Below are positions 5,442 through 28,114 of a DNA stretch of 64,000 nucleotides, one piece after another (the stretch's first letter is position 1; each line of letters opens with the position of its first letter). The stretch lies in contig NZ_JAGGMN010000001.1 of the NCBI RefSeq assembly GCF_017875325.1, positions 186,001 to 250,000 of the forward strand, given 5' to 3'. Below the pieces are notes generated by a model, which ran no database searches, was not told the DNA's origin, and saw only the letters and a program-made list of their open reading frames with translations. The stretch comes from Methanofollis sp. W23 (lineage in GTDB: Archaea > Halobacteriota > Methanomicrobia > Methanomicrobiales > Methanofollaceae). The position numbers and the translations under genes were made by a program.

Positions 5442-5700
5442 TATTCTAATACTCGTTTCCCCCTGTTCCTCTGGATGACAATAGGGTCAGAAGGATTGAG
5501 GGAACAACCTGAGACCTGGCATGCGGTCCGCTCCTTTCTCTGTGTGAGTCCGGGGCGGGGAGACCCCTCAGGATATCACTGTGCCTTCCTATCCCTCACT
5601 TCCCCCAGGAGCCCGGGGGACAGCGTCCAGGTGCGAGCATGCAGGAAGGCGACTACGCCGCTGAACAAATGTTAATTAGTCTGTGCAAGTGAATTTTACA
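5442..5700. other. gene-free leader region upstream of the cbi operon
   Basis: No gene supported. Includes further fragments of repeat type (CCCCAGGAGCCCGGGGGACA near 5605). The last 60 nt before cbiT are AT-richer (AAATGTTAATTAG at 5668-5680) and are the likely promoter area. I see no cobalamin-riboswitch box, which agrees with the rarity of that riboswitch in archaea. Confidence 0.35.
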
Positions 5701-5703
5701 TAC

Positions 5704-9181: not shown

Positions 9182-9797
9182 TCCAGGCGCCGACACCCCC
9201 GAAGGGTATGCGATCTCGCGGACGAGTAGATCCCTGGCCCGCCAGGTGATCGGCGACCAGACGCCTGAAGACCGGATCAGGCAGCGGTGTGCGATCTCGG
9301 TCGGCGACTTCGTGATGGCCGACCTGGTGCGGTTCTGCGGCGATACGGTCGAGGCTGGGCTCTCAGCCCTGGAGCAGGGCGCCCCCATCATCACCGACAT
9401 CCATATGGTGCAGATGGGGATCAGGAAGAAGGAGCACCATTCAGAGGTGCTCTGCGCCCTCGATTATGGGCAGGAGATCGCTGCGGCGCGCGGGATCACC
9501 CGCTCGTCCGCGGGCTTCCTCGCCCTCCGTGATCAGTTGGGGGGTGCGGTCGTGGTGATCGGGAACGCTCCTTCGTCGCTCCTCGCCCTCTGCGAGATGG
9601 TCAGGGAGGGCGTGCGGCCCGCACTGGTCATCGGGATGGCGGTCGGGTTTGTGAATGCCGCGGAGTCCAAGGAGGAGTTGCGCACTCTCGACATCCCCTC
9701 GATCTCGACGCAGGGGACGCGGGGCGGGACGCCGCCGGCGGTCGCGGCGATGAACGAGATCGTCACGATGTATGTGGAGCGGACGCGTGAGACATGA
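9171..9797 (+). CDS. cbiC: cobalt-precorrin-8 methylmutase
   Basis: A 208-residue precorrin-8X methylmutase, moving the methyl from C11 to C12 to give cobyrinate. Seen: the ISRTSRSLARQVIG opening, RCAISVGDFVMADLV, ITDIHMVQMGI with the conserved histidine, and the C-terminal GMAVGFVNAAESKEEL. The ATG at 9171 is chosen because GGGAGG lies 4 nt upstream; an ATG at 9159 is in frame but sits in the Shine-Dalgarno. It overlaps the end of cbiH by 11 nt and the start of cbiD. Confidence 0.94.
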   Translation: MYIDPGADTPEGYAISRTSRSLARQVIGDQTPEDRIRQRCAISVGDFVMADLVRFCGDTVEAGLSALEQGAPIITDIHMVQMGIRKKEHHSEVLCALDYGQEIAAARGITRSSAGFLALRDQLGGAVVVIGNAPSSLLALCEMVREGVRPALVIGMAVGFVNAAESKEELRTLDIPSISTQGTRGGTPPAVAAMNEIVTMYVERTRET

Positions 9798-10806
9798 GAG
9801 GATCGCCGACCCGGTGACCGGCTTCGTCTATCTTGCAGAGTGGATCGGGCGCTGTACCGATCCCGATGCCCTCGCCCTCGCTGCATCCGGCCTTGGCGTC
9901 CTCACCGCCGACGGCTCGGTGTTGCGCCGGGGGTTTACGACCGGCACGACGGCCGCGGCGGCATGCCGGGCGGCGGTCCTCTCCCTGGCCGGACCGGTGG
10001 ACGAGGTCACGCTTCTCCTGCCATGCGGGCTTGAGGTCGTCGTCCAGGCAAAGGGCGTCGGCGGCCGCGGCGAGGCCAGGAAGGACTCTGGCGACTATCA
10101 TGCAGATGTCACCGCAGGCCTCGAGTTTGTCGCCCTGGCAGAGCAGGTCCAGTCAGGGGTGGAGGTTGAGTACGGCGAAGGGGTCGGGCGGTTCACCCGC
10201 GAGACCCCGAGGTACCGCACCGGAGCGCCGGCGGTCAGTCCCACGGCCCGCGAGACGATCGAGGCGGGGGTCAGGTCGGCCGCGGCATCGGTCGGCCTCC
10301 CTGGCGTGCGGGTCAGCCTCTCCATCCCTGAAGGCGCTGCGGTGGCGACACAGACCCTCAACCCGCGCATCGGGGTGGAGGGCGGGCTCTCGGTCCTCGG
10401 GTCCACCGGCCTCGTGGAACCCTGGGACGACCACCTCTCAGAGTCGGCGCTGGGACGGGTGGAAGACGCCGAGCGGGTGGTGCTCACTACCGGCAGGCTC
10501 GGTCTGCGCTATTCCCGCCTCCTCTTTCCAGAGCATGAGGTCGTGCTCGTCGGGGTGCACCTCGCCGACGCCCTTGCGGTGGCAAAGGGTGAGGTGGTCG
10601 TCTGCGGGCTCCCTGGACTGGTCATGAAGTTCATGGACCCTGAGGTGCTTGCCGGGACCGGGTGTGCGACGGTGGAGGAACTGACCGGGACGCCAGCGTG
10701 GCGGGGTGTCATGGAGAGGACGTTTGCCTCGTTCAAGGCGGCGCACCCTGAGGTGCAGGTGGTGGTCGTGGCCAGGGGCGGCACGGTGCTGGGGGACTCG
10801 GGATGA
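9787..10806 (+). CDS. cbiD: cobalt-precorrin-5B C1-methyltransferase
   Basis: About 339 residues. CbiD is a non-canonical SAM enzyme that methylates C1 of the ring in the anaerobic pathway. The signature RRGFTTGTTAAAACRAAV lies near residue 49 (bacterial forms read RTGYTTG), followed by SIPEGAAVATQTLNPRIGV and GGLSVLGSTGLVEP. It carries about 40 residues before the signature. GTG at 9787 behind GGAG is my preferred start; ATG at 9772 is in frame. It overlaps cbiC by 11 nt and cbiE by 4 nt. Confidence 0.92.
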   Translation: MRHERIADPVTGFVYLAEWIGRCTDPDALALAASGLGVLTADGSVLRRGFTTGTTAAAACRAAVLSLAGPVDEVTLLLPCGLEVVVQAKGVGGRGEARKDSGDYHADVTAGLEFVALAEQVQSGVEVEYGEGVGRFTRETPRYRTGAPAVSPTARETIEAGVRSAAASVGLPGVRVSLSIPEGAAVATQTLNPRIGVEGGLSVLGSTGLVEPWDDHLSESALGRVEDAERVVLTTGRLGLRYSRLLFPEHEVVLVGVHLADALAVAKGEVVVCGLPGLVMKFMDPEVLAGTGCATVEELTGTPAWRGVMERTFASFKAAHPEVQVVVVARGGTVLGDSG

Positions 10807-11372
10807 AGGTCGTCGGCGTGGGGTGCGGTCCAGGGATGCTCACCGACAAAGCGGCCTGCGTTATCTCAAGTGCCACACTCATCTATGGTTCGGCGAGGGC
10901 GATCGATCTCGCACGACCGGTGATCAGGGACAGATGTGAGGTGCACGAGATCACCGATTACAGAGCCCTCCGCGCCCTCCCGGCCGACGCCGTCGTCCTC
11001 TCGACCGGCGACCCGATGCTTGCGGGCCTGGGCTACCTGGGCGGCGAGGTGGTGCCAGGCATCTCCTCGATGCAGGTCGCCTTCGCCCGTCTGGGTCTCT
11101 CCCTCGTGAAGGCGGCGGTCGTCACCGCCCATGGCAAGGACCACGCGGCGGCGGTGAGAGAGACGGCAGAGGAGGTCGGCCGCGGCCGGATCGTCTTCCT
11201 CATCGCCGACCCTGAGTTTTCGGTCCAGGGCCTTGCGGCGGCCCTGCCTGAAGAGACCGGACTTGCCGTCTGCGAGAACCTCGGCTACCCTGAAGAGCGG
11301 ATCGCTCTCGGGACCGCGGCCAGACCCCCGTCGCCGGTGTCAGGGCTCTTTGTGGTCGTCGCCGGGTGCTGA
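10803..11372 (+). CDS. cbiE: cobalt-precorrin-7 C5-methyltransferase
   Basis: A 189-residue class III methyltransferase matching CbiE (N-terminal half of bacterial CobL), which methylates C5 while CbiT acts on C15. Seen: VVGVGCGPGMLTDKAACVI, VVLSTGDPMLAGLG and VVPGISSMQVAFARLGL. The ATG at 10803 overlaps the cbiD stop (ATGA). It is the last gene of the operon; no clear T-tract follows. CbiE and CbiT are separate genes at opposite ends of the same operon here. Confidence 0.93.
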   Translation: MKVVGVGCGPGMLTDKAACVISSATLIYGSARAIDLARPVIRDRCEVHEITDYRALRALPADAVVLSTGDPMLAGLGYLGGEVVPGISSMQVAFARLGLSLVKAAVVTAHGKDHAAAVRETAEEVGRGRIVFLIADPEFSVQGLAAALPEETGLAVCENLGYPEERIALGTAARPPSPVSGLFVVVAGC

Positions 11373-12444: not shown

Positions 12445-12764
12445 TCACGAGATCTGCACATTGATCCAGTAATAGTTCCCGCGGTACTCGACGTACCGGT
12501 CAGGCCCCTCAGCGGTCCCCCACGTGAACCTCTCGATAAATTCTTTGGCTTCTTCTGGGTCTTCGATCGGCCCTTTGGCATAGAGTTGTGGACGATGGTC
12601 CCGTCTCTGGCCTCGCGTTCATCGACCTCACGTACATAGATCTGATATGCACCTTTCCCGGTAAGGCCGACGATGGAGCCGAGGATATATGGGGTGAGGA
12701 TGATGATCCTATTCTGATCTGTTCATTCTTTATGACCGGCCCTGCAAAATCTGACGATGGTCAT
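12445..12764 (-). pseudogene. decayed minus-strand gene of unknown family
   Basis: Read on the minus strand, an ATG at 12764 opens MTIVRFCRAGHKE and meets TGA at 12725-12723. The same frame continues with ILTPYILGSIVGLTGKGAY and REVDEREARDGTIV. A one-base frameshift near 12585-12595 is then needed to read YAKGPIEDPEEAKEFIERF and YVEYRGNYYWINVQIS, ending in TGA at 12447-12445. The protein-like character of the segments, each in a different frame or behind a stop, points to a gene about 105 codons long broken by one stop and one frameshift. I do not recognise the family. A TGA read as an amino acid is unlikely in this group. Confidence 0.6.
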
Positions 12765-12920
12765 TTCACTCGCCTCTCTGGGACCTCCATGTCATGCATT
12801 GCCGGGCTTCAGAAGTATACTGTTGTCTCACTCGAGCCCAATGTGGCCTGGGACGACGCTTTTTCTGACTGCCGGCACGGGCCATATCTTCATTTTGTCT
12901 TCTCCCAAAGATCCTCCATC

Positions 12921-14243
12921 ATGATCCCGGCAATTGTCATCGCGGGCACCCACTCAGGGTGCGGAAAGACCACCCTTGCCTCTGGCATCATGGCGGCCCT
13001 GCAGGCGAGAGGTCTGCAGGTCCAGCCCTTCAAGGTCGGCCCTGACTTCATCGACCCCTCGCACCACACCGCCATCTGCGGCCGTCCCTCGCGCAACCTC
13101 GATCCCTTCATGATGGGGGAGGACGGGGTGGCCAGGACCTTTCTGGCGGCCTCGGCAGGGGCCGACATTGCGGTCATCGAAGGGGTGATGGGGATGTACG
13201 ACGGGCTTGAGGGTGGCGACCTCGGTTCCACGGCCCATGTCGCTCGCATCCTCGGAGCCCCGGTGGTGCTGGTCGCTGATGTCGGCGGGATGTCGAGGAG
13301 CGTCCATGCCCTGGTCCGCGGCTATACTGGCTACGATGCCGCCGTCCGGTTCGCCGGTGTGATCTTCAATCGGGTCGGGAGCCCGCGCCACCGTGAGATG
13401 ATCGAGGAGGAACTCTCGGTCCCGGCCCTGGGCTGGGTGCCGACCGAGAGGGAAAAAGCCGTCTCCAGTCGCCATCTCGGGCTTGCGATGGCAGGAGAGG
13501 CGAGCATGGCCGCCTTTGGCGAGGTCTGCGAGGCGCACTGTGACCTCGACGCCCTCATCGCCTCGGCCGCTTCGGCCCCCGCGGCAATGCCTGTTCCGGG
13601 CGGTGCCGACGCATCCTCTCGCGTCCGCCTCGGAGTGGCACGCGACGCCGCCTTCTGCTTCTACTACCAGGACAACCTTGACCTCCTCCGCCGGGCAGGG
13701 GCCGACCTGATCTTCTTCTCCCCATTCACTGACTCCCTTCCTGAGGTCGACGGACTCTACCTTGGCGGCGGCTACCCGGAACTCCATGCCGAAGCGCTCT
13801 CGGCCTCCGCCTGTACCTCCCAGATCAGGGCGGCCGCAGAGGACGGGATGCCGGTCTATGCCGAGTGCGGCGGCCTGGTCTATCTCTGTGAGGGACTGGA
13901 GGCCGACGGCCAGGAGTACCGGATGGCAGGCGTCCTCCCGGCGGAGGCGCGGATGCACGGGCGTTTTCAGGCGCTTGGCTATGTGGAAGCCGCCGCCACC
14001 GGGGCCTCCCCTCTCCTCCAGGCGGGGGTGGGATTCCGCGGCCATGAGTTCCATTACTCCTCAGTCGACCCGGCGGCAGACGCACGCTTTGCGCTCTCGC
14101 TCAGGCGCGGGAAGGGGATCGCCGACGGCCGTGACGGGCTCTGCGAGCACGCGGTGGTGGCGGGCTACAGCCACGCCTATCTGAACGAGACCTTTGCCTC
14201 GGCATTTGTCGGGGCCATGGAGCGGCGGCAGCGGGGTCGGTGA
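12921..14243 (+). CDS. cbiA: cobyrinate a,c-diamide synthase
   Basis: A 440-residue enzyme that amidates the a and c acetate side chains of cobyrinate (and, in some methanogens, Ni-sirohydrochlorin as CfbB) with ATP and glutamine. Seen: the deviant P-loop IAGTHSGCGKTTLASGIMAAL at residues 5-25, VGPDFIDPSHH, GVMGMYDG, and the C-terminal amidotransferase domain with YAECGGLVYLCEGL carrying the nucleophile Cys. The ATG at 12921 gives the normal length; the open frame back to 12588 only covers the decayed gene on the other strand. It lies 1.5 kb after cbiE and is followed 1 nt later by the Gate protein. CbiA and CfbB cannot be separated by eye. Confidence 0.92.
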   Translation: MIPAIVIAGTHSGCGKTTLASGIMAALQARGLQVQPFKVGPDFIDPSHHTAICGRPSRNLDPFMMGEDGVARTFLAASAGADIAVIEGVMGMYDGLEGGDLGSTAHVARILGAPVVLVADVGGMSRSVHALVRGYTGYDAAVRFAGVIFNRVGSPRHREMIEEELSVPALGWVPTEREKAVSSRHLGLAMAGEASMAAFGEVCEAHCDLDALIASAASAPAAMPVPGGADASSRVRLGVARDAAFCFYYQDNLDLLRRAGADLIFFSPFTDSLPEVDGLYLGGGYPELHAEALSASACTSQIRAAAEDGMPVYAECGGLVYLCEGLEADGQEYRMAGVLPAEARMHGRFQALGYVEAAATGASPLLQAGVGFRGHEFHYSSVDPAADARFALSLRRGKGIADGRDGLCEHAVVAGYSHAYLNETFASAFVGAMERRQRGR

Positions 14244-14244
14244 G

Positions 14245-15201
14245 ATGCCTGAGGTCGCCCTCTCGCTTGGTACGGTAGGAGCATACCTGCTCAGGGCGAC
14301 GCTTCTCATCACTATCGGCATCCTCATCGCCAGCATCATCACCGAGACCGGGATCTTCTCCCGTCTTGGTTTTCTCTCGCGGCCGATCTCCAGGCTCTCG
14401 GCACTTTCAGAACCCTGTTCTGTTGTCCTCCTCACGATGGTCGCAAATGCCACTGCTGGCAAGGCGATGCTGGCGCAGTTTCTTAACGAAGGGAAGGTGC
14501 GCAAGGGGGAGGTGGTCCCGACCCTCCTGATGGGCACCTTCCCGACAGTGCTGGGGGAGTCGCTCTTCAGGGTCCATCTCCCGACGGCGGTGGTCCTCCT
14601 CGGTCCGGTCGTCGGCGTGATCTATACCCTCCTCAATCTCCTCTCCACTCTCATCCAGGTCGGTGGTGCGGTGATCTATATGCGCCTCTTTGTAGGAAGG
14701 GGGGATGAGGGCACTCTGGCCCAACCTCCCGAACCGATCCCGGTTCGATTCGATCGGGAGACCCTCAGGGAGGGCGTCGCCAGGGCCCTCCCCTCCCTGC
14801 GCCGCATCGTCCCGGTCGCGGTCCTTGCTACTCTGGTTTTTTTTGCGCTCTATGCGGTCGGCGCAGTGACGGCGGTCGCGGCGATCTTCGGCCCGGTCTT
14901 CGGGCTGGTCGGGATACCCGGCGAGAGCATCGCCGCCATCGTTGCTCATGCCACCCATTTTTCCGCAGGCTATGCGGTCGTCGGTTCGCTCCTTGCAGAG
15001 GGTGTACTCGATCTGGAAGAAGCGCTCGTCACTCTCATCATCGGTTCGATGGCGGTGATCACTCTCATCTACTTCAAGTACTCCGCCCCCCTGTACCTCT
15101 CCCTCTTTGGGCGGGAGGGGGTGAAGGTTACGATAAAGACCTATGGGACGAGTATGGCGGCCAAGGTCGTCACGATTTTCATTGTACTCATGATCTTTTA
15201 A
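14245..15201 (+). CDS. nucleoside-recognition (Gate) domain membrane protein
   Basis: A 318-residue integral membrane protein with about eight hydrophobic segments in two similar halves. TMVANATAGKAML near residue 70 and IVAHATHFSAGYAVVGSLL near residue 235 are the paired motifs of the nucleoside-recognition / Gate family (COG3366 type). The transported substrate is not known for the archaeal members. The ATG at 14245 directly follows the cbiA stop and is preceded by GGTGAG, so it is probably co-transcribed with cbiA; a link to corrinoid or cobalt handling is only a guess from position. No T-tract follows. Confidence 0.82.
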   Translation: MPEVALSLGTVGAYLLRATLLITIGILIASIITETGIFSRLGFLSRPISRLSALSEPCSVVLLTMVANATAGKAMLAQFLNEGKVRKGEVVPTLLMGTFPTVLGESLFRVHLPTAVVLLGPVVGVIYTLLNLLSTLIQVGGAVIYMRLFVGRGDEGTLAQPPEPIPVRFDRETLREGVARALPSLRRIVPVAVLATLVFFALYAVGAVTAVAAIFGPVFGLVGIPGESIAAIVAHATHFSAGYAVVGSLLAEGVLDLEEALVTLIIGSMAVITLIYFKYSAPLYLSLFGREGVKVTIKTYGTSMAAKVVTIFIVLMIF

Positions 15202-15266: not shown

Positions 15267-15333
15267 TACTTGTAGACAATGATCCTGCATGCATCACCGG
15301 AGAGCAGGGCCGGTGGTGCACGGGGGAGATCCT

Positions 15334-15870
15334 ATGACTGGAGCAACGATGGAGCATTTTGTTCCCGGAAAGGTGACCGGGACACGGACCGTAAGGGTGC
15401 GGGACCGCGAGTATGCACGGTTGCGCGCCCTGGGTTCTGTGCGCGACTCATTCAGTGACGTCATCGAGCGTCTGCTCGATTTCTACGAAGCCTACAATGG
15501 CGGCGTCCACTCGAACGACCCGGAGGGGTTTGAGGGAGCAGACCTTCCCGACCACCCGGTCTACCGTCGGGTCGCCCTTGATCACTTTACCAGGACTCTG
15601 GCCCTGGGTGAGGACGTCTCTTTCACCATTGGGTTTGACCCGCTTGCACGTCCGCTCGGACGGCGCGGGAAGGGTCTGGTCGCCTTTTACAAGGACGGCA
15701 GGAGATTTTGTTTATTCCGGGTTGGAAAAGAACACCTCTGGCTCTATTTCCCGACCGAACGAAAGGAAACCGAACTTGAGGGATGGGAACTGGTGCAGAA
15801 TGTGTTCCTTGACAACTACCTGGAAGACGGGGGGATGCATCTTATCAAGCGTCAGTATCAGACGATGTGA
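15334..15870 (+). CDS. ribbon-helix-helix (DUF217-like) N-terminal protein of unknown function
   Basis: A 178-residue protein. Residues about 13-50 (TRTVRVRDREYARL, then SFSDVIERLLDFYEA) resemble the archaeal VapB-like antitoxin / DUF217 ribbon-helix-helix fold, which binds DNA as a dimer. The rest (about 60-178) is a soluble domain I do not recognise, with conserved-looking LPDHPVYRRVALDHFTRTL and FCLFRVGKEHLWLYFP segments. The ATG at 15334 is chosen for GGGGGAG upstream; an ATG at 15289 is in frame. No VapC-type PIN toxin sits next to it, so a stand-alone regulator or a restriction-like DNA-binding role is possible but unproven. Confidence 0.6.
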   Translation: MTGATMEHFVPGKVTGTRTVRVRDREYARLRALGSVRDSFSDVIERLLDFYEAYNGGVHSNDPEGFEGADLPDHPVYRRVALDHFTRTLALGEDVSFTIGFDPLARPLGRRGKGLVAFYKDGRRFCLFRVGKEHLWLYFPTERKETELEGWELVQNVFLDNYLEDGGMHLIKRQYQTM

Positions 15871-16410: not shown

Positions 16411-18186
16411 ATGTGTTACCTATTGCGCTACAATTCCATTATATGTATCTTTCTCGCCCTCCTTCTGATCGGACCTTCCTCGGCTCTCTACGATTTTGAG
16501 GGAGTCCCCTTCGACGTAACGGCGCAAGGGGAGGTGCAGGGGGATTTCCGCACCTTCGGGACCTATGGACTTGCCATCCCGCCGGTCGAATGCACCTTCT
16601 CCCTCAACCAGACTCCCAGATGTGCCCGTGCCTACTGCGGGGTCTGGGGCGGGAATGAGCGGTACACCGGGTGGGTGGAGATGACGGTGAACGACCGGCC
16701 GCCGGTCCGCGTCTCCCTCGGAGGTGTCGACGACGTCGACGCCGCCGCCCTCATCTCAGGCCATGGGGTTGCCTGGGTGGGGTGGGACCTCACCGGTCTG
16801 CTCGGGCCCGGCGAGAACACCGTGACGGTCACGACCAGTCGGGGCGAGACCGGGAATCGCCTGGACGGCCGCGTCTATGCCCTGCAGGTCGTCGCCGTCG
16901 AGGAAGACCCCGCCCGCCCTCTCACCTGCTACTGGATCGCGGAGGGCAACGAGAACCTCCATGGGGAAGGGTGGGCCGGCGATCTCCAGACCAGAAAAGA
17001 CGAGACCTCCATCTCGTTCGGAGGGGTGAAAGAGCAGGTCGATTGGGCGCGCCTCTCCCTCCTCCTCCTTGCCACCCAGAAGGGACAGCCCGACTACGCC
17101 ACCTTCAACGGCCATGACCTGGGGAGCGTGGCCGGCGGCGAGTATCTCCCGGGCGCTCGCGACATCGGCGACGAGTGTTCCTTCAATGCAGACGGCGGCG
17201 AAGGGACGCGCTCCAGGTACGTCGACGCCGAGACCTTCGACGTGACCGACCTGGTGGGCGAGACCAACACCCTCACTATTGCACGGGGCAGAGACCTCGA
17301 CGGCGACGGTTCGATCTCGTCCACCGGGGCGACGCCTGAGGGCGAGGACTATCTCCATCCGGTCCTGGCGGTCCTCGCGGTACAGCCGGCCGACGCCTCC
17401 CCGGCCCCTGACTTCTCTCTCAGCGACCTCGCGGTCTCGGGGGCGTACACCGGGAGGACTGCCGACCTCCGGGCCGTCCTGAGGAATGCCGGGTCGCCGC
17501 CCGAAGCCCCGGTGACAGTGCGGTGGACGGTGGACGGTGCGGTGATCGCGGAAGAGACGGTCGTCCCGGCAGCACGCGGTGTCCAGACAGTGCACGCCAC
17601 CTGGGACGCCGTCGAGGGGCGGCACGAGATCGCCGCCGCCGTCTCGACGGCGGGCGACCGGGACACCGGCGACAACCATGTCGCCCGGAGTGCGACGGTC
17701 GGGGCGCTCCCTGACCTCGCGGTCGACGTCGGCGAACCGTATCGGGCGGACGGCGCTGGCCCGGCCCCGACCTCCTCGCCTCTCCCCTTCCCGCTCGCGG
17801 CCTGGGCACTCGGGGTCGCCGCGCTTGCGGCGGGCAGGAAGTCGAGAGGGACATGTCTCCTCGTGCTCCTCCTCGTCGCCGCGGTGACGGTGGTGCCGGC
17901 CGGCGCCGCCGGAGCGTATGAGCAGTATGAAGTCCCGGTCGAGGTGAAGAATCTCGGCGGGAGCGACGCCGCGCCCTTCCAGGTCACGGTCTACCTGGAC
18001 GGCGAGAAGGTCGCCGCACTCTCTCTGGAGGCCGGACTTGCGGCCGGCGGCACCGAACACCTGAAGGTCCCGCTCTCCACCACGTCCGGCGACCATACCC
18101 TCAGGGTCGTCGCCGACGAGAACGGGGTGATCGAGGAGAGCGACACGAACAACAACGCAGCGGAGGGTCGGTATGCGTTCCCGTGA
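16411..18186 (+). CDS. secreted DUF3344/CARDB surface protein with an internal double hydrophobic segment
   Basis: A 591-residue exported protein. The signal peptide (about residues 9-26, SIICIFLALLLIGPSSA) is followed by a DUF3344 region to about 325 and a CARDB domain (about 330-430). A second CARDB begins with LPDLAVDVGEPY near 435 but is broken by two hydrophobic stretches (PFPLAAWALGVAALAAGRKS, then GTCLLVLLLVAAVTVVPAGA) before it resumes with VPVEVKNLGGSDAAPF near 510. The first stretch looks like a C-terminal anchor and the second like a new signal peptide. It overlaps the next gene by 14 nt and heads an operon with a MacB-type transporter. Ligand unknown. Confidence 0.8.
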   Translation: MCYLLRYNSIICIFLALLLIGPSSALYDFEGVPFDVTAQGEVQGDFRTFGTYGLAIPPVECTFSLNQTPRCARAYCGVWGGNERYTGWVEMTVNDRPPVRVSLGGVDDVDAAALISGHGVAWVGWDLTGLLGPGENTVTVTTSRGETGNRLDGRVYALQVVAVEEDPARPLTCYWIAEGNENLHGEGWAGDLQTRKDETSISFGGVKEQVDWARLSLLLLATQKGQPDYATFNGHDLGSVAGGEYLPGARDIGDECSFNADGGEGTRSRYVDAETFDVTDLVGETNTLTIARGRDLDGDGSISSTGATPEGEDYLHPVLAVLAVQPADASPAPDFSLSDLAVSGAYTGRTADLRAVLRNAGSPPEAPVTVRWTVDGAVIAEETVVPAARGVQTVHATWDAVEGRHEIAAAVSTAGDRDTGDNHVARSATVGALPDLAVDVGEPYRADGAGPAPTSSPLPFPLAAWALGVAALAAGRKSRGTCLLVLLLVAAVTVVPAGAAGAYEQYEVPVEVKNLGGSDAAPFQVTVYLDGEKVAALSLEAGLAAGGTEHLKVPLSTTSGDHTLRVVADENGVIEESDTNNNAAEGRYAFP

Positions 18187-19132
18187 CCTGGCGCTGACCC
18201 TCTTCCTGCTCTCCGTGGTCGTCGTCCCGGTCTCGGCCACCTATGCCGCCGACCATCCCCTGACCCCGGTGTATGCGGAGACCGTCCATGGCGGGTACCT
18301 CTACACCCTGGGTAACAGCACCTATTCGGGCACCCTCGAACCCGGCGCCACCTATACGGTCGCGTACGAGGACCTGCTCCCCGAGGGTGCTGAGGTCGGG
18401 TTCGCCCGCCTGTACCTCTACTGGGCATGGAGCAAAGACGGGCAGGCCGCGGTCTATCCGGCGGTGGACGTCGCGGTAGACGGCACGCCTCTCGAGCGGG
18501 TCGCCCGCTATACCGACTCCAAGGGTTTTGTCTCAAAGAACGACTTTTTCTCCGGCGTCGATGTCTATGCCCTCCCCACCCTCGCCTCGGGCCGCCCACT
18601 CACGGTGACCGGGACGAACGCGGCCGAAGGAAACGCCACCTTTGTCGTGCAGGGTGCGGCGGTGCTGCTGGTCTACGTAGATCCCGCCGCCCCCGAGAAG
18701 ATGCTCTGGGTGCAGGAGGGCGCCGACCTCCTGTACAGCAACTATGGCATCACCCCTGAGATGGCCACGGCGCAGGCGACCTTCGATGGCGAGATCGATA
18801 CGGGCAGGGTGAAGTCGGCCACCCTCTTCCTGGCGGCCCCCTCCGCTGGGTACACCACCGCCGACCTCCCCGAGAAGAACCGCATCGCCATGAACCGCGG
18901 CGGCGAGAGCGGTCTGCCGTCTTTTATCCAGTCCATCATCGACCTCGTTTTCCCCTCGGCCAACGGCAAGACCTGGATCGACGCCTTCGATGCCGACGAA
19001 GAACGGCAGGTGGGCACCGACCGGCGGGACGTCACCCCCTGGCTCCGTTCGTCAGGGAACACCGTCGAGGTGCAGGACCATGGAGACTACCTCCAGTTCA
19101 CCAACGCCGTCCTGGAGGTGGAGATGCGATGA
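18173..19132 (+). CDS. secreted DUF3344 protein
   Basis: A 319-residue protein with a signal peptide (RSRDLALTLFLLSVVVVPVS) and one DUF3344 domain filling the rest: FARLYLYWAWSKDGQ, VDVAVDGTPLERV, KNDFFSGVDVYALP and LWVQEGADLLYSNYGITPE follow the same order as in the neighbouring paralogues. There is no C-terminal anchor, so it may be released or held by partners. DUF3344 proteins are common on the surface of Methanomicrobiales and have no known function. It overlaps the preceding gene by 14 nt and the ABC ATPase by 4 nt, which ties it to the transporter. Confidence 0.82.
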   Translation: MRSRDLALTLFLLSVVVVPVSATYAADHPLTPVYAETVHGGYLYTLGNSTYSGTLEPGATYTVAYEDLLPEGAEVGFARLYLYWAWSKDGQAAVYPAVDVAVDGTPLERVARYTDSKGFVSKNDFFSGVDVYALPTLASGRPLTVTGTNAAEGNATFVVQGAAVLLVYVDPAAPEKMLWVQEGADLLYSNYGITPEMATAQATFDGEIDTGRVKSATLFLAAPSAGYTTADLPEKNRIAMNRGGESGLPSFIQSIIDLVFPSANGKTWIDAFDADEERQVGTDRRDVTPWLRSSGNTVEVQDHGDYLQFTNAVLEVEMR

Positions 19133-19794
19133 CCGCCGCGATCGAGGTGACGGGCCTGGGCAAACGCTACCCCCCTGCCGTCGAGGCCCTGCGGGACGTG
19201 GACCTCCGGGTCGAGAGCGGTGAGTTCGTCGCACTCCTCGGGAAGAGCGGGAGCGGGAAGAGCACCCTCTTGAACATCCTCGGCGGCCTTGATCACCCTG
19301 AACGCGGCAGCGTCAGGATCGCCGGGGCCGGGGTTGACTATACCGACCGCACCGCCCTGGTCGCCCTCCGCCGGCAGACAATCGGTTTTGTCTTCCAGGA
19401 CTTCTCGCTCATCCCGACGATGACGGCCCTGGAAAATGTGGCCTACCCGCTCCTCTTCAACTATCAGGATCGAAAGATGCGGGAGGCGCGGGCCGCCGCC
19501 CTCCTCGAGCGCGTTGGCCTGGCGCACCGGCGCGGCCACTACCCGCATCAGATGAGCGGCGGCGAGCAGCAGCGGGTGGCGGTGGCGCGGGCACTGGTCG
19601 GCCGCCCTTCCATCATCCTCGCCGACGAACCGACCGGGAACCTCGACACCGTCACCAGCGCGGAGATCATCGGTCTCCTCAGGGAGATCAACCGGGAGGA
19701 CGGGACCACGCTCCTCGTCGTCACCCATGACCCGGACGTCGGGGCCGAGGCCGACCGCGTCGTCGTGATGCAGGACGGGCAGGTGGTCGCATGA
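19129..19794 (+). CDS. ABC transporter ATP-binding protein, MacB/LolD type
   Basis: A 221-residue ATPase. Walker A is GKSGSGKST at residues 38-46, followed by the Q-loop in IGFVFQDFSLIPTMTALENV, the signature MSGGEQQRVAVARAL, Walker B IILADEPTGNLD and the switch His in VVTHDP. The FSLIPTMTALENV and DEPTGNLD wording is that of the MacB/LolD/FtsE branch, which works mechanically on extracytoplasmic substrates. It overlaps the upstream DUF3344 gene and the downstream permease by 4 nt each. Confidence 0.94.
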   Translation: MTAAIEVTGLGKRYPPAVEALRDVDLRVESGEFVALLGKSGSGKSTLLNILGGLDHPERGSVRIAGAGVDYTDRTALVALRRQTIGFVFQDFSLIPTMTALENVAYPLLFNYQDRKMREARAAALLERVGLAHRRGHYPHQMSGGEQQRVAVARALVGRPSIILADEPTGNLDTVTSAEIIGLLREINREDGTTLLVVTHDPDVGAEADRVVVMQDGQVVA

Positions 19795-21005
19795 AGGTCC
19801 TCGACTTTTTCCTTCTTGCCGCCAGGCAGGTCTCGCGCAAACGGATGCGGGCGTGCCTGACCATCATCGGGATCGCCGTCGGGATCGCCGCGGTCATCGG
19901 CACGGTCTCGCTCGGCGAGGGGATCAGGGCCCAGGCGATCAGTGCGATCGAGGCGCAGTCAGACCTCACCCTCCTCGAGGTGACGGCCGGCCAGCAGGGA
20001 GGGGTCGTCCAGTTCGTGACGCCTTCCAGGGCGCAGGCCGTCGCCGGCATCCCGGGTGTCGCCGCCACCGCCCCGATCCTGAGGGACGCCTTCGCCTCTG
20101 AACGGCAGACCTATCTCGCGGTCATGGGGGTCGACGCCGGACCCTTCGAGGCGGTGGTCTCGTCCTCCTATGCACAGGGCCTTGCCCCGCGACCCGGCAC
20201 CAACGAGGTCGTGCTCGGTGCCGACCTCGCCGAGAGCCTGCGCCGGTACGAGGGCGTGCGGGTCGGCGATCCCATGACCGTGCTGGTGCGCGAGTACGCC
20301 GATACCGGGTCGCCCGAAGACCGGCGGGTCACGCTTCTCCCGGTCGGCGTCCTCGCTGAAAGAGGCGACGCCCTGGACACCACCCTCGTCTGCGACCTCT
20401 CGTATCTGGAAGGGGTCCGGGACCGGTCGGGCACCTATGACGGCGTCCTGGTCAGGACCGCCACCACCGCCGACGTCTTCCCGGTCGTGGCCGAGGTGAA
20501 GGCGCTGGGCCTCGGGGTCGAGGGGTCCTTTGAGGAGATCGATGCGGTGAACCGCCTGATGGACCTGGTGATCCTCGTCCTCGCGTTCTTTGCCGCCGTC
20601 TCCCTGGTGGTTGGGGCGCTGATGATCATGACCACGATGGTCACCTCGGTCTATGAACGTCGGCACGAGATCGGGATCGCCATGGCGGTCGGGGCCTCGC
20701 CGCGCGAGGTGCTGGCCCTGGTCCTCATGGAATGTGCGACGATCGGGCTGGTCGGCGGGATCGTCGGCGACGTGCTCGGTCTCGGGTTCGCCGGGGTGAT
20801 CGAGACGGTCGGCAAACCCCTGCTCGTCTCCGCCCTCGGCGAGGGCTTTGCCGGGCTTGCGGGATCGTCGATCACCCTGGTCACGCCGCCACTCCTCCTC
20901 CTCGGGGTCGTGGCGGCGGTGGCGCTCTCGGTGCTCTCTGGACTGTACCCAGGGCTGCTTGCGGCCAGGCAGGACCCGGTCGAGGCGATCAGGTCGAGGG
21001 GGTAG
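19791..21005 (+). CDS. ABC transporter permease, MacB/FtsX family
   Basis: A 404-residue permease with the MacB topology: an N-terminal membrane helix (about residues 22-42, ACLTIIGIAVGIAAVIGTVS), a long extracytoplasmic domain (about 45-265), then three helices in the C-terminal FtsX domain (about 268-295, 320-345 and 365-392). The motifs RMRACLTIIGIAVGIAA and YERRHEIGIAMAVGASPREV are typical. MacB-type systems extrude or release proteins rather than import nutrients, and here the permease is flanked by exported DUF3344/PEGA proteins, so release or assembly of those proteins is the likely job. The start overlaps the ATPase stop by 4 nt. Confidence 0.92.
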   Translation: MKVLDFFLLAARQVSRKRMRACLTIIGIAVGIAAVIGTVSLGEGIRAQAISAIEAQSDLTLLEVTAGQQGGVVQFVTPSRAQAVAGIPGVAATAPILRDAFASERQTYLAVMGVDAGPFEAVVSSSYAQGLAPRPGTNEVVLGADLAESLRRYEGVRVGDPMTVLVREYADTGSPEDRRVTLLPVGVLAERGDALDTTLVCDLSYLEGVRDRSGTYDGVLVRTATTADVFPVVAEVKALGLGVEGSFEEIDAVNRLMDLVILVLAFFAAVSLVVGALMIMTTMVTSVYERRHEIGIAMAVGASPREVLALVLMECATIGLVGGIVGDVLGLGFAGVIETVGKPLLVSALGEGFAGLAGSSITLVTPPLLLLGVVAAVALSVLSGLYPGLLAARQDPVEAIRSRG

Positions 21006-21010
21006 ATGAG

Positions 21011-24000
21011 ATGATGAAAGAGAGAATGAAAAGAAAAGAACGATTCGGAGTGCTGTTCTGTATCCTTGCTCTCCTCCTGCTCCCGGCGGCGGCGGCCGAC
21101 TCCTATGTCGGCGGGATCCCACTCTCGACCGAGGAGCAGGGAACGGTCTCGGGCGGGGTGTATATCGACGCCTACCCGGGATTTGCGACTTCAGCCGAGA
21201 AGACTTTCAGTCTCCCTGCCGGGGCCGAGGTGAAATGGGCCAGGCTCTATGTCGCAGTCTACTGCGGCAACCAGCAGGAGAACTATGCCGGGACGGTGAC
21301 CGTCTCTGTGGACGGAGGGCCGCGGTACACCGATGACTTGAATGTCGAGTACGTTTTCCCTGGCGATGATGGTGATGGCCCTGTCTGGGTGAACGATCAC
21401 TGCACCAGGGTGACGAGCGACTACCTGGCATGGTATGACGTGACGTCCTGCATCCGGGATGACGGCCTGAAGGTGAAAGTCGCGACCGAGAAGATCGACG
21501 CGAAGTTCGACGGTCGGATCAAGTGCGTCGCCCTTGTCGCCGCCTATGACGACGGTGACGGCGACATGGTGCACTACTGGATCAACCAGGGGCATGACAC
21601 CGACTCGTACAAGACCGACGAGAACGGGAAACCGTACGTCGGCGAGACCGAGTTCGGGACCGGCGTACTGGAGACCGAAGGGGACGAGGCTACGCTCTCG
21701 GTGCTGTACCTCGCCTCTGAGAATGGGATCTATCGGTTCGGCGGCGAGACGTTGGACGGCGATGGGTCGGAAGGCGCATATTTCGGGTCTGAGCGCTGGG
21801 ATGTCCTCGACCTCCTCGAACCGGGCAGAGATGTTGCCCTCACCTATGACCGGAAGGACTCGGAGACCTTCTACAAGATCTTCCTCTCGACCCTGACGGT
21901 GCGGTACGCCGAGCGCGATGTCGGGGCCATCGCGGTGAACTCGGTTCCCGCCGGTGCGCTCGTCTATATCGACGACGAGGAGCAGGAGGAGGAGACCAAC
22001 ACCACGGTTTCAGGCCTGGAGACCGGCACCCATACCGTCAGGGTGGAGATGGAAGGCTACCCGGTCCCTGAGGAGCGGGAGGTCGAGGTCGAGAAAGGTG
22101 AGACCGCGACGCTGACGTTCGTCCTGGAGCGGCCGTCCGGTTCGATCAGCGTTTCGTCCGAACCTGTCGGGGCGGCGGTCTATCTTGACGGCGAAGAGAC
22201 CGGGGTCACGACCGACACGCTCCTTGAAGAGGTTCCGGCCGGTGGACACACCATCATCCTCAAGCGTGCCGGCTATGACGACTATACCGAAGAGGTGGTG
22301 GTCGTCGAGGGCGAGACGGCCGAGGTCGCGGCCACCCTTACCGCTTCTTCCTCCTCGCCGGGTGGCGGGGGAGGTTCTGACGACGGCGGGGACGACGGGG
22401 CAGATGATGAAGGCACCGGGTATGCCGGCGGTCAGTTCGGGGTGGTCGCCCGCGGTGCGGTCGCCGGTAATCTCAGCCTGACCACCGCCGGGGCGTACAC
22501 CGGTCTGCTCGCTCCCGGCGACAGCGCGACCTTCACCGTCCCCCTCGACCCGTCGGCGGACGCCCGTCTCACCTGGGGCCGCCTGTACCTCTTCACCACC
22601 TGGGGACATGACGAGGAGCAGCGCGCTGGCCAGCAGGCAGAGGCCGCGGTGAGCGTGGACGGGACGCCGGTCCCGATAGACCGGCGGTACAGCGACCAGA
22701 AGGGGGAGGGGGCCTACGACTATCCGGTCGAGACCCTGGCGTACAATGTTACCCCTTATCTTGACGACCACGACCTCGCGGTCGCGGTCACCAACACCGG
22801 GAAGGAGGGGGCGACCTTTGCCCTGTACGGGTGTGCCCTCCTGACACTCTCTGAGGAACCTGGTGCGCCGCTGAGGGAGTACTGGGTGGCGGAAGGGGCG
22901 GACGCCCTCCGTGCCGACGAAGGTGCCGGGATCACGTCTGAGGAGGCCTCCACCACGGCCAGGTTCACCGGCATCCCCTCACCCGAGACGGTCTCCGCCG
23001 CCCATATGATCGTCGCGAGTACGGCAGCGACCGGGATGGAGGGAGAGGAGCATGTGGTCATCTTCAATGGGGCCGAATGGGAGAACCCCCTCCAGGGGGG
23101 GTCGTCGGTGGTCAGCACTGCCACCTTTGACGTCAGGCCCTATCTTGAGGAGGGCGAATCGTCGGCCGCGATCCGGAGCGTCGACACCGGGAAGAAGGGC
23201 GACTATATGGAGAACCGGGTGGTGGCCCTGGTCCTGACGCGGGGCGCCCCCTCGTCGTCGGCGACCCCTGCACCTGGTTCGACGCCGTCGTCGGTTGGGG
23301 GCATGTCTGAACTGGATAGCCCGCCGACCTCCACAGACGCTGACCGCACTGCAGTCGATGAAGAGGAGGAGAACCCGTTCTTATCCTGGCTGTTCTCATT
23401 GTGGTCGGCATTCTTGAGTCTACTCGGGTTCCAGGTCGAAGATCAGGCCCCTGACCCGGAGGCCCGAACGGTGGAGGAGAAAGAGGCGCCGGTCCCGACC
23501 ATCAGCGTGGCTCCTCTAACCCCTCAAGACGCCATGCTTGCCCTCACCTCCACACCCTCATCCGCCCTCATCTCACTTGATGGAGAATACATCGGTAGGA
23601 CCACACCCTGCACCCTCGGCCCCCTCACATCGGGTCGTCACACTATAAGGCTTGACCACGAAGGGTGCCCGGCCTTTGAATCGGTCTTCGACCTCGCGGG
23701 TGAACAGACACTTTCCGTTGACCTCGAAGCCGGGACGCCTGTCCTCTCTGAAGAACTTACCGACACCGAACGTGACGGTACCGGGTGCATCCTGGTGGAC
23801 TCGAAGCCTGACGGGGTGAAGATCGTCTTTGACGGCCGGACACTGCCGGTGAAGACACCTTATCTGATCTGTGGGGTGAAGCCGGGCCTTCATACAGTGA
23901 AGGTGAAGGGGAAAAGGGGTCAGTTCGAGGTGGACAAAAAGAAGTGCTCGGTCGAACCTGGTGTGGTGACACCCCTCCTCTTTACCGCAGAGAAAACGGC

Positions 24001-24655
24001 TTCCCACACCCTGAATGTCAGGTCAGAACACTTTGAAGGAGTTGAGGTCTCTGTCGACGGTCGACGGTGCAATGCAAAAATTCCAGGCAAAGTGGAGGTC
24101 CAGGGGTCCAGTTCCTATCTCTCTCTCCGCGACGACCAGGGCTACTTCACCTTCCAGATCCTCAGGTGTCTTGATGACGGCGCCGACCTCTGGATCGAAT
24201 CCTCTGAACAGCCTGGTGCCGGGGTGATGGTGGAGTCCGACCCCTCTGGGGCTGACATTTTGGTGGACGGGTTTGTGACCGGATACGCGACTCCCTATCT
24301 TGTCACCAATCTCTCGAAAGGCTCGCACCTGATCGGGGTCTCTCGGCCAGGGTATCTCCCCCAGGAAAAGAGGATCCCGCTCGTCGACCGCCAGAGCACA
24401 CCTGCGGACGCAGCGGTCTCGTTCCAACTGGAGGGCTATTCTTGTGGTGCTCTCCAGGTCACCACGCCGCAGGAGGGAGCGCGGATATATCTGCATGGCA
24501 AGAACACCGGAGAAAAGACTCCTTACATCTTTGAATATATGAAGATCGGCACCTATGAGGTGAAGGTGAAGGACGGGAACACCGCCCGGGAGCAGGACGT
24601 GACCGTCCTTCCTGGCAGGACCGTACTCTGCTCGTTCGTGGACGGAGCGGAATAG
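21011..24655 (+). CDS. large secreted protein with two DUF3344 regions and multiple PEGA domains
   Basis: A 1214-residue exported protein. The signal peptide is near residues 10-30 (RFGVLFCILALLLLPAAAAD). Order: DUF3344 (about 30-300), PEGA repeats from about 306 and 376, a Gly/Asp-rich linker, a second DUF3344 (about 475-745), a hydrophobic segment NPFLSWLFSLWSAFLSLLGF near 793, then four or five PEGA or PEGA-like units (from about 840, 925, 1000, 1074 and 1145). PEGA beta-domains such as VESDPSGADILVDGFVTG are surface or S-layer associated. There is no C-terminal anchor, so the mid-chain hydrophobic segment is the only candidate membrane span. ATG at 21011, 5 nt after the permease stop. Confidence 0.85.
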   Translation: MMKERMKRKERFGVLFCILALLLLPAAAADSYVGGIPLSTEEQGTVSGGVYIDAYPGFATSAEKTFSLPAGAEVKWARLYVAVYCGNQQENYAGTVTVSVDGGPRYTDDLNVEYVFPGDDGDGPVWVNDHCTRVTSDYLAWYDVTSCIRDDGLKVKVATEKIDAKFDGRIKCVALVAAYDDGDGDMVHYWINQGHDTDSYKTDENGKPYVGETEFGTGVLETEGDEATLSVLYLASENGIYRFGGETLDGDGSEGAYFGSERWDVLDLLEPGRDVALTYDRKDSETFYKIFLSTLTVRYAERDVGAIAVNSVPAGALVYIDDEEQEEETNTTVSGLETGTHTVRVEMEGYPVPEEREVEVEKGETATLTFVLERPSGSISVSSEPVGAAVYLDGEETGVTTDTLLEEVPAGGHTIILKRAGYDDYTEEVVVVEGETAEVAATLTASSSSPGGGGGSDDGGDDGADDEGTGYAGGQFGVVARGAVAGNLSLTTAGAYTGLLAPGDSATFTVPLDPSADARLTWGRLYLFTTWGHDEEQRAGQQAEAAVSVDGTPVPIDRRYSDQKGEGAYDYPVETLAYNVTPYLDDHDLAVAVTNTGKEGATFALYGCALLTLSEEPGAPLREYWVAEGADALRADEGAGITSEEASTTARFTGIPSPETVSAAHMIVASTAATGMEGEEHVVIFNGAEWENPLQGGSSVVSTATFDVRPYLEEGESSAAIRSVDTGKKGDYMENRVVALVLTRGAPSSSATPAPGSTPSSVGGMSELDSPPTSTDADRTAVDEEEENPFLSWLFSLWSAFLSLLGFQVEDQAPDPEARTVEEKEAPVPTISVAPLTPQDAMLALTSTPSSALISLDGEYIGRTTPCTLGPLTSGRHTIRLDHEGCPAFESVFDLAGEQTLSVDLEAGTPVLSEELTDTERDGTGCILVDSKPDGVKIVFDGRTLPVKTPYLICGVKPGLHTVKVKGKRGQFEVDKKKCSVEPGVVTPLLFTAEKTASHTLNVRSEHFEGVEVSVDGRRCNAKIPGKVEVQGSSSYLSLRDDQGYFTFQILRCLDDGADLWIESSEQPGAGVMVESDPSGADILVDGFVTGYATPYLVTNLSKGSHLIGVSRPGYLPQEKRIPLVDRQSTPADAAVSFQLEGYSCGALQVTTPQEGARIYLHGKNTGEKTPYIFEYMKIGTYEVKVKDGNTAREQDVTVLPGRTVLCSFVDGAE

Positions 24656-25396: not shown

Positions 25397-28114
25397 GTGA
25401 AACGAAATGACAGGTTTGTCCAGGTCCCCCTTCTTTTTCTCTCTGTCTTGCTCTGTCTGGCCCTCGTCCTGGTGCCGGCAGCGAGTGCGGAGAAGGAGAT
25501 GGCGGTCACTACCGAAGAGTCCCTGCAACCAGATCTTGAAATCTCTTTTGTGGCCCCGAACATGGGAAAAGGGAATGAGTTCTTCGCCCTTGGACCAAAC
25601 ACCGTCACCGCGACGGTGAAGAACAACGGCACCGCGGCCGCACCTGATTTCAAGGTGCGTTTCCAGATCAATGACACCGAAGAGATGGTGGACGTCCAGG
25701 GCCTTGGTGCGGGTGACGAGACCAGGATCGAGGTCACTGATCCAGTGCTCAGGAATTATGACGACGAGGTGACGGTGACGGTCACCGTCGATCCAGATGG
25801 TGCGATCGACCCCGCCACTCCAGGAGAAAATTTCCTCTCTATTACGAAGAAGGTCGTGTACAACGGCTACAGGGGCAAGCGGTACACTGACGGGGACGAT
25901 CTCAAGACCCTGACATCCGAGACCTTCAATGGTGGTCTTGTGTACTCCTTCGGCGACTCTGCATACAAGAGCGGGAAAGGCGGTTGGACTGCGTACACCG
26001 CCAACTGGACCAGTGCTGATCTCGCTCTCCCTGAGAACGCGACCGTGAAATCCGCCTATCTTGGTGTTGCCTATACCTGGGACGTCGAAGAGGTCGTCCC
26101 TGACGACGTCTCCATGACCTTCAACGGTGCCGATGCCGGCGCCCCGGACCACTTCAGCGACCAGAAGATGTACGGTTCCTATGATCACCCCGCCGGGATG
26201 GCGGTCTATGATGTGAGCGACCACTTTGACCGGACCGGCAACGCCGCCGTGTTCACGAGGCCTGCCGAGAGCCAGGCCAGCTTCAACGGCATGGTGCTCA
26301 TCGTTGTCTATAACGATCCCGACGCGAGCATGAAGCAGGTTGTCCTCAATGCAGGTTACGACATCATCTCGGGCAAGGAGAAGTACTCCTCAACGCCCGA
26401 ACAGGCGACGGCCTATGCTCCCTTCATATTCACCGCGCCTGAAGGTGCCGGGGTGGGCGCCGCCCGCCTGATCACCATTGCCCCAGGCGCTGCGTCCGAA
26501 GGCACGCTGCTTTTCGGTGACGGCACCTGGACCGACGTCTGGGACTATGCCGGGAGTTCGAATATCGGGCTTGACGACCGGTTCGTTACTGGATATCTCA
26601 ATGAAACCCCGGTCGTGGCATTCAGGAGCGAAGAGGACGACTACTTCGATGCGGCCGCTGCCATCCTTGTCCTGGACTATGGCACTGCCGACCTCGAAGT
26701 CGCGGCCGTCAAACCGAATGCCGGCCAGATCTTTGCCAACGAACCGAACACCATCACCGCGACGGTGAAGAACAACGGCACCGCCGACCTCGGTGCCTTC
26801 ATCGTCAGGTTTGAGATCGATGGTGAGGTGCAGGACGTGACCGTCCCCTTCCTTGCCGCTGGTGAGACACTCGACCTGACCGTCACCGACGAGACCATCC
26901 GCGCCCTTGACGATGGGGTGACGGTGAGCGTGAGCGTGTACTCCACCGGCGAAATCGACGAGTCCGACGAGATGGACAACATGCTCACGATCGAGAAGGC
27001 CGTCGTGTACAACGGTTACAAAGGGAAGCGGTACACCGACGGCGATGACATCACGACCATGGAGACGGTGACCGTCACCGGCGACCTTGTGTACTCCACC
27101 GGCGACTCGGTGTATAAGAGTGGGAGGGGCGGTTGGACCGGGTATACGGCCAACTGGACTGCCGCTGACCTCCCCATACCTGAGGGTGCGGTCGTGGACT
27201 CCGCCTTCCTCGGCATGGCCTATACCTGGGACGTCGAAGAGGTGGTCCCAGAGAATGTCTCCCTGACCTTCAACGGCGAGGAGGTCGAGTCCACGGCATA
27301 TTTCAGCGACCAGAAGATGCATGGGTTCTATGACAATCCCGCCGGGATGGTCGTGTATGACGTGAGCAACCACTTTAACCGGACCAGCAATGCCGCTGTG
27401 CTTACCAGACCGGCTGAAAGTAAGGTCTGTTTCAACGGCATGGTGCTCATCGTCGTCTATGCCGATTCTTCTGCCGGGAAGAAACAGATCCTCTTCAATG
27501 CAGGTTACGACATCCTCTCCGCGAAGGAGAAATATGCCACGACGCCAGAAGAGGCAACAGCCTACGCTCCCTTCGACGTTGCCCTAGCCTCAGGTTACCG
27601 AGTGGACGCGGCCCGCCTGATCACCGTTGTCCCGGGCGCCGAAGCGGAAGGCACGCTGTTCTTCGGTGATGGCACCTGGACCGACGTCTGGAACCATACC
27701 GGGGATTCGCACATCGGGATCGCAGAGCATGACGTGACCAAATATGTCGGCAGGAATCCGGTCGCTCAGTTCAGGAGTGAAGAGGACGACTACTTCGATG
27801 TCGCCGCCGCCATCCTGGTGGTCTCCCAGCACCGGGTGTGGAGCAGCGATGGTGGAGACTGGGATCCGGTCCCGAGAGATCAGGGTGAGAAAAAGAGCGA
27901 TGAAAAGATCGTCGACACCGAAGCAGGTCCTGAGGATGCTGAGGGTGATGACGGTGCCGAACCGACCGAGACCGAACCTGTCCCCACCGCGACCCTGCCG
28001 GTGACGACGGCGACCACCACTTCGACCACGGTGCCGACGACACAAGCCACCCCCCTCCCTGCGGTGCTGCCCTTTGCAGCACTCGGCCTGCTGCTTCTGA
28101 TGAAGCGTCGGTGA
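25397..28114 (+). CDS. surface protein with duplicated CARDB-DUF3344 units and C-terminal anchor
   Basis: A 905-residue protein with signal peptide (about residues 9-31), two tandem units each made of a CARDB domain and a DUF3344 domain (about 45-430 and 431-810), an Asp/Glu- then Thr/Pro-rich stalk and a C-terminal hydrophobic anchor (LPAVLPFAALGLLLLMKRR). Each unit repeats VVYNGYRGKRYTDGDD, AYTWDVEEVVP, FSDQKM, NGMVLIVVY and RSEEDDYFD. The two halves are close even at DNA level, so the duplication is recent or kept alike by gene conversion. Start is GTG at 25397 (MKRND). It is the only anchored member of the local DUF3344 set, so it could dock the released ones; that is inference. Confidence 0.85.
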   Translation: MKRNDRFVQVPLLFLSVLLCLALVLVPAASAEKEMAVTTEESLQPDLEISFVAPNMGKGNEFFALGPNTVTATVKNNGTAAAPDFKVRFQINDTEEMVDVQGLGAGDETRIEVTDPVLRNYDDEVTVTVTVDPDGAIDPATPGENFLSITKKVVYNGYRGKRYTDGDDLKTLTSETFNGGLVYSFGDSAYKSGKGGWTAYTANWTSADLALPENATVKSAYLGVAYTWDVEEVVPDDVSMTFNGADAGAPDHFSDQKMYGSYDHPAGMAVYDVSDHFDRTGNAAVFTRPAESQASFNGMVLIVVYNDPDASMKQVVLNAGYDIISGKEKYSSTPEQATAYAPFIFTAPEGAGVGAARLITIAPGAASEGTLLFGDGTWTDVWDYAGSSNIGLDDRFVTGYLNETPVVAFRSEEDDYFDAAAAILVLDYGTADLEVAAVKPNAGQIFANEPNTITATVKNNGTADLGAFIVRFEIDGEVQDVTVPFLAAGETLDLTVTDETIRALDDGVTVSVSVYSTGEIDESDEMDNMLTIEKAVVYNGYKGKRYTDGDDITTMETVTVTGDLVYSTGDSVYKSGRGGWTGYTANWTAADLPIPEGAVVDSAFLGMAYTWDVEEVVPENVSLTFNGEEVESTAYFSDQKMHGFYDNPAGMVVYDVSNHFNRTSNAAVLTRPAESKVCFNGMVLIVVYADSSAGKKQILFNAGYDILSAKEKYATTPEEATAYAPFDVALASGYRVDAARLITVVPGAEAEGTLFFGDGTWTDVWNHTGDSHIGIAEHDVTKYVGRNPVAQFRSEEDDYFDVAAAILVVSQHRVWSSDGGDWDPVPRDQGEKKSDEKIVDTEAGPEDAEGDDGAEPTETEPVPTATLPVTTATTTSTTVPTTQATPLPAVLPFAALGLLLLMKRR

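Follow-up and report, generated by a model that had tools for sequence, protein, structure and literature searches.

A pair of DUF3344 genes, an ATPase gene and a permease gene, which lie together in a 64,000-nucleotide stretch of DNA from Methanofollis sp. W23 (hereafter the window), very probably constitute a four-gene unit that recurs across related genomes. On the basis of gene context we propose, at a probability of about 0.5, that this unit is a type VII ABC motor which would work on surface DUF3344 proteins and serve the acquisition of cobalt, nickel or tetrapyrrole nutrients. The genes concerned, and those that precede them in the window, are as follows.

Cobalamin biosynthesis run, 5683..11372, + strand: methyltransferase, 4 TP_methylases, CbiG, CbiC and CbiD
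CbiA/CobB-type amidotransferase, 12588..14243, + strand: CbiA + GATase_3; could be CbiA or CfbB
Gate-domain membrane protein, 14194..15201, + strand
Candidate regulator, 15289..15870, + strand: 193 aa; weak VapB/ribbon-helix-helix N-terminus
ORF1, 16411..18186, + strand: 591 aa; signal peptide, DUF3344, CARDB, TM hairpin, AxA-type site, second CARDB
ORF2, 18173..19132, + strand: 319 aa; signal peptide and single DUF3344, without membrane anchor; predicted double jelly-roll
ORF3, 19129..19794, + strand: 221 aa; type VII ABC ATPase (LolD/MacB/FtsE-like)
ORF4, 19791..21005, + strand: 404 aa; four-TM permease, MacB_PCD and FtsX
ORF5, 21011..24655, + strand: 1214 aa; signal peptide, 2 x DUF3344, 6 x PEGA
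ORF6, 25397..28114, + strand: 905 aa; 2 x DUF3344 and 2 CARDB, C-terminal TM/basic tail (sorting-signal-like)

An initial annotation had described five genes, the first four overlapping by 14, 4 and 4 nt and the last set off by 5 nt, and all of these coordinates were reproduced by ORF calling, with the start of ORF5 taken as the ATG at 21011 (the longest possible start, 20732, falls within ORF4). The domain content that it gave for them, namely DUF3344, a MacB-type ATPase and permease and a PEGA/DUF3344 protein, was borne out by Pfam, in which ORF3 matched ABC_tran. DUF3344 (PF11824) scored above the gathering cut-off in ORF1, in ORF2 (E=1.7e-66), twice in ORF5 and twice in ORF6, a sixth gene located 741 nt downstream of ORF5; six of the eight DUF3344 domains in the 2.9-Mb genome fall inside the window (G000:C1:186001-250000). 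Each of ORF1, ORF2 and ORF5 carries a signal-peptide-like N-terminus. Of the two DUF3344 proteins described as secreted, ORF2 has a signal peptide and no anchor; ORF1 fits the description only in part, as it contains an internal two-helix TM hairpin. Elsewhere in the window we observed a 1851-aa NosD/right-handed beta-helix protein with PKD-like domains (33994-39549) behind a subtilase (31427-33541), and a 1192-aa ORF on the minus strand (54660-58238) without a Pfam match at E<=1e-5.

By sequence, ORF3 and ORF4 are a type VII (MacB/LolCDE/FtsEX) ABC machine, for which ATP-driven mechanotransmission is predicted. ORF4 is an FtsX-type permease in which TM1 and TM2 flank a large extracytoplasmic domain; hydropathy placed its four TM segments at about residues 21-37, 259-275, 309-325 and 368-384, and Pfam matched MacB_PCD at 23-238 (5e-20) and FtsX at 266-396 (1.7e-19). 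Its closest PDB sequence match was YtrF, followed by MacB (E=1e-31 against MacB structures), LolF and LolE, the last two being full-length homologs with solved structures. The best NCBIfam models for ORF3 were LolD, MacB, FtsE and YbbA. Neither of the NCBIfam Lol cut-offs was reached (230.7 against 307.75 for LolD, 73.3 against 362.45 for LolCE), and ATPase and permease are encoded by separate 221- and 404-aa genes rather than by a MacB-style fusion. No MacA adaptor domain was found in the operon, in the adjacent window genes scanned or among the typed recurrent neighbour families of related loci. Type VII machines typically perform extracytoplasmic work, as opposed to moving a substrate across the cytoplasmic membrane, and it is the partner protein that defines them (PMC12646458). 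The pair described here resembles MacAB-TolC, LolCDE-LolA, FtsEX-EnvC, YbbAP-TesA and BceAB in its separate LolD/MacB-like ATPase, its four-TM FtsX/MacB_PCD permease and the presence of partner proteins outside the membrane (PMC12646458). It differs from them in being archaeal, in lacking MacA, TolC, LolA, EnvC or TesA, and in having DUF3344 proteins as its apparent partners, one of them with a TM hairpin.

The linkage between the ABC pair and DUF3344 was then assessed across genomes. Among 100 genomes of the order, the ORF4 query retrieved about 27 orthologs at >=45% identity, one of them a contig-edge fragment (59% over 75 residues), and the scores of full or near-full matches passed from 284 bits directly to 92 bits. 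All of these orthologs were preceded, at about 650 nt, by a DUF3344 gene, and in about 25 another one followed downstream. The order ORF1-ORF2-ATPase-permease-ORF5 recurred in at least 24 loci from several families of the order, which is beyond chance; this set includes a few loci with contig-edge gaps and three with one extra gene between the permease and ORF5. In profile searches of 393 genomes of the phylum, the permease was found in 41 genomes at >=326 bits, ORF1 orthologs in 43 and ORF2 orthologs in 41. Permease and ORF2 occurred together in 40 genomes, each alone in a single genome and neither in 351 (Fisher p=2e-52, a value that overstates the independent evidence because the genomes are related). 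In the permease-only genome (G225) a truncated ORF2 adjoins the permease, and the genome with ORF2 alone (G338) has a completeness of 60%. A permease that scored 169 bits (G151) lacks DUF3344 and, similarity apart, was excluded as an ortholog. In 75 of 80 fetched bacterial and archaeal loci of generic MacB-like genes, recovered with the permease profile, there was no DUF3344 nearby; of the other five, four were orthologs and one was a split ANME-2 copy. No DUF3344 relatives were found on viral contigs. The initial annotation had described DUF3344 as locked to the MacB-type genes and had named a lack of co-occurrence in other genomes as what would refute it; the two clearly do co-occur elsewhere, and the link, both physical and in evolution, is much stronger than could be seen from the sequence of the window.

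The association also persists where the operon does not. In Methanosarcina-type genomes ORF1, ORF2 and the ATPase lie together, with the permease some kilobases away or on another contig; in G155 the ORF1-ORF2 and ATPase-permease pairs are about 200 kb apart with all four genes present, and in G201 the genes are split too and the set is kept. Retention of four genes that have been split apart makes a functional set likelier than mere operon hitch-hiking. Pairwise divergences of the four proteins were correlated across 40 loci (r=0.88-0.95), as shared ancestry alone would also produce. ORF5 is a partner at the level of the order, and does not lie beside the module in Methanosarcina-type and most other loci of the phylum. 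From these sequence comparisons, the core comprises ORF1, ORF2, the ATPase and the permease, with ORF5 and ORF6 as variable surface partners, and ORF4 represents a distinct orthologous permease group tied to DUF3344. One ortholog-bearing genome is presumably that of Methanosarcina acetivorans, which is genetically tractable; its DUF3344 matches in the control set agree. In this genome ORF1, ORF2 and the ATPase lie at about G418:C1:2104508-2107954 and the permease at about 2096307-2097494. In G134 (L179:6482-8754) a tandem second copy of the module lacks its own ATPase, as if two permeases share one. The window genome holds a second DUF3344 locus (G000:C1:1318124-1327517, L063); weaker DUF3344 pairs of this kind occur in members of the genus without the MacB-type module, so that at least one DUF3344 role is likely to be independent of it.

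Both DUF3344 proteins of the core were analysed further. The hairpin of ORF1 spans approximately residues 458-498, has a basic loop and is followed by the AxA-type site; it was scored by hydropathy in nearly all of 26 orthologs, the first helix being sub-threshold in two, and the invariant motifs of the protein include EGNxNxHGEGW and RGxDxxxDG. The structural model of ORF1 (pLDDT 68, from five sequences) was too weak to be used beyond the helical hairpin, and its fold matches were ignored. The confident model of ORF2 (pLDDT 89, pTM 0.86) consists of two eight-stranded jelly-roll sandwiches, one after the other. Structure prediction drew solely on sequences from the window and from the fetched related loci. 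A search of the PDB gave no close fold for this model, with partial jelly-roll matches only (query TM at most about 0.25), from which no function was drawn, and no sequence relatives beyond weak galectin-like noise (E>=0.09). The ortholog alignment of ORF2 contains no invariant His or Cys, and the protein is therefore not an obvious transition-metal ligand. A lipobox was absent from the 27 ORF2 sequences, the N-termini of which end around A(T/S)YAGD without Cys at the expected site.

The genes surrounding the module were examined by clustering 727 adjoining ORFs and typing them by family. The recurrent neighbours were an unexpected set. They included an importer composed of Peripla_BP_2, FecCD and an ATPase, CobN, ChlI/ChlD-like AAA-VWA proteins, CbiQ together with a fused double ATPase, cobalamin-synthesis genes such as CbiA and CbiD, a Gate-domain protein, and regulators that appear NikR-like from their sequence. 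Of 30 genomes that carry the module, 22 have FecCD and 16 have CobN no more than 25 kb from it; in four of the others the contigs are too short for a decision. Both CobN and a FecBCD-type importer lay within this distance in 14 genomes (e.g. G015, G016, G035, G037, G045 and G064). A test on 14 genomes with long contigs gave 10 with FecCD inside this distance, against 1.1 expected (p=6e-9), and 8 with CobN, against 0.4 expected (p=5e-10). The same test placed none of 10 paralogous MacB-like permeases near FecCD or CobN, although one paralog outside the test, from a fragmented genome (G099:C14), is near FecCD. The operon itself contains a periplasmic-binding-protein gene in three loci (L047, L055 and L199), where it separates the permease from ORF5. 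CbiQ, accompanied by a fused CbiO and a DUF3344 protein, lies within a few kb of ORF1-ORF2 in all eight Methanosarcina-type genomes. The module has cobalamin genes next to it in L036, L038, L183 and L185 and also in the window, where the operon comes after the cobalamin-synthesis run and CbiA. The window genome has no CobN, and its nearest FecCD is about 240 kb away, with none local; in G002 no neighbour of the FecCD, CobN or cobalamin type was found within 25 kb. A nutrient context of cobalt, nickel or tetrapyrroles for the module is moderately probable from the identity of its neighbours, gene proximity being no proof of function.

As to regulation, no shared dyad motif upstream of 34 ORF1 genes exceeded shuffles; the VapB/RHH-like gene of the window is kept directly upstream of ORF1 in two sister genomes. 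Several neighbours were recorded as observations in their own right. The Gate-domain protein (window 14194-15201, cluster 13) recurs beside CbiA/CobN and the module, and is a possible cobalt/tetrapyrrole transporter. A 363-aa multi-TM protein with no Pfam family (L197:11571-12662 and equivalents, cluster 8) comes after the permease and a small DUF3344 protein in Methanosarcina loci. The FecB-type binding proteins L037:1700-2884, L043:1207-2475 and L050:1143-2402 carry an EF-hand/dockerin-like segment at the N-terminus, and a small protein with a C-terminal anchor (cluster 5) precedes them.

We propose that ORF1, ORF2, ORF3 and ORF4 form one envelope machine, with the DUF3344 proteins as extracytoplasmic partners, ORF1 being a membrane-anchored partner held by its hairpin and ORF2 a soluble one. 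ATP hydrolysis by ORF3 would move the outer domain of ORF4, which would in turn act on ORF1 and ORF2. It is moderately probable that the motor acts on DUF3344 outside the cell, both the physical complex and the direction of work being predicted. ORF1 and ORF2 might then handle the large surface DUF3344/PEGA/CARDB proteins ORF5 and ORF6, and the machine would capture or hand over a cobalt-, nickel- or tetrapyrrole-type nutrient, for which the candidate ligands may be Co, Ni, a corrinoid, F430 or heme. Import would fall to a separate FecBCD-type or CbiQO-type transporter, and CobN/ChlID or the enzymes of cobalamin synthesis would process the nutrient. A more specific version, which we consider unlikely, is an archaeal form of TonB-like energy coupling, in which the motor passes ATP-derived force across a single membrane to DUF3344 surface receptors and loads or releases ligand for the FecBCD/CbiQO importer, energising capture at the S-layer. 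The DUF3344 proteins have signal peptides of their own, which makes an ABC export route for them unlikely; together with the usual mode of type VII machines (PMC12646458) and the metal/tetrapyrrole-uptake neighbours, to which the initial annotation drew no connection, this leaves the earlier suggestion of an export or envelope-assembly system unsupported.

Surface assembly nevertheless deserves consideration, and we regard it as rather unlikely: by a Lol-like extraction, the motor would free Sec-exported DUF3344/PEGA proteins or assemble them into surface fibres, and the metal genes would adjoin because metal limitation is the condition in which such fibres are produced. In its favour, proteins of the ORF5/ORF6 type are large and rich in repeats, the ORF1 hairpin could itself be a substrate, LolF and LolE are full-length homologs of the permease, and a DUF3344 cluster of ambiguous function figures in a fibrillar-adhesin survey (PMC9210967). 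However, ORF2 has no lipobox, the operon has no LolA-like gene, and the core four persist without ORF5 when the substrates would be expected within the conserved set; the neighbourhood, moreover, would need a separate explanation.

The FtsX-type permease, with its closest PDB sequence match in YtrF of the same superfamily, and the definition of type VII systems by their partners (PMC12646458) are also consistent with an FtsEX/BceAB-like device that senses envelope or ligand status via its DUF3344 partners without transport or assembly work. This is quite improbable, as no kinase or hydrolase gene was consistently linked among the clustered neighbour ORFs. MacB-like efflux of a small molecule, such as a metallophore or a toxic tetrapyrrole, with DUF3344 proteins in place of MacA, would accord with the MacB_PCD domain, the similarity to MacB structures and the part that MacB relatives take in efflux. 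No MacA or TolC homolog was met among the neighbourhood families examined, however, archaea of this kind have no outer membrane, and giant surface proteins are hard to explain in this way, all of which render efflux very improbable. Nutrient acquisition is the reading with the best support.

DUF3344 has been listed as fibrillar-adhesin cluster 23 with an ambiguous function (PMC9210967), and a study of Methanoperedens plasmids places DUF3344 surface proteins beside NikR and an EcfT/EcfA (ECF-type) transporter (PMC9674854). Domain and surface location are the same as here, and the NikR/ECF setting fits the context of the module; the available parts of these two papers mention neither the set of four genes nor a connection of DUF3344 with a type VII ABC pair or with CobN and FecBCD. 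A further comparison is with the Bacteroidota Hmu system (HmuY-R-S-T-U-V) and BtuS/CobN-like chelatases, which in anaerobes combine surface capture proteins, a CobN-family protein and an uptake transporter in one neighbourhood, an arrangement to which the loci with both CobN and FecBCD, though not that of the window, may correspond. In contrast to Hmu, there is here no outer membrane or TonB receptor, the importers are of the FecBCD/CbiQO type and CobN at the module loci has no signal peptide. According to a 2025 study of HmuS (PMC12583661), complete hmu operons are absent from archaea and the role of archaeal CobN homologs is unclear. Proteomics of Methanosarcina barkeri showed CobN/BtuS to shift with iron source (PMC10846266). 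A literature search that did not extend to most subscription journals turned up no earlier description of the module or of the metal and tetrapyrrole genes around it.

With this module, the orphan surface family DUF3344 acquires a constant partner and a role that can be put to the test, and type VII ABC machines gain an apparently undescribed class of partner. The finding also bears on a stated open question, namely what archaeal CobN/HmuS homologs do (PMC12583661). If the proposal is true, the module would be one way in which methanogens, and the methane oxidisers related to them, obtain the cobalt or nickel required for methanogenesis.
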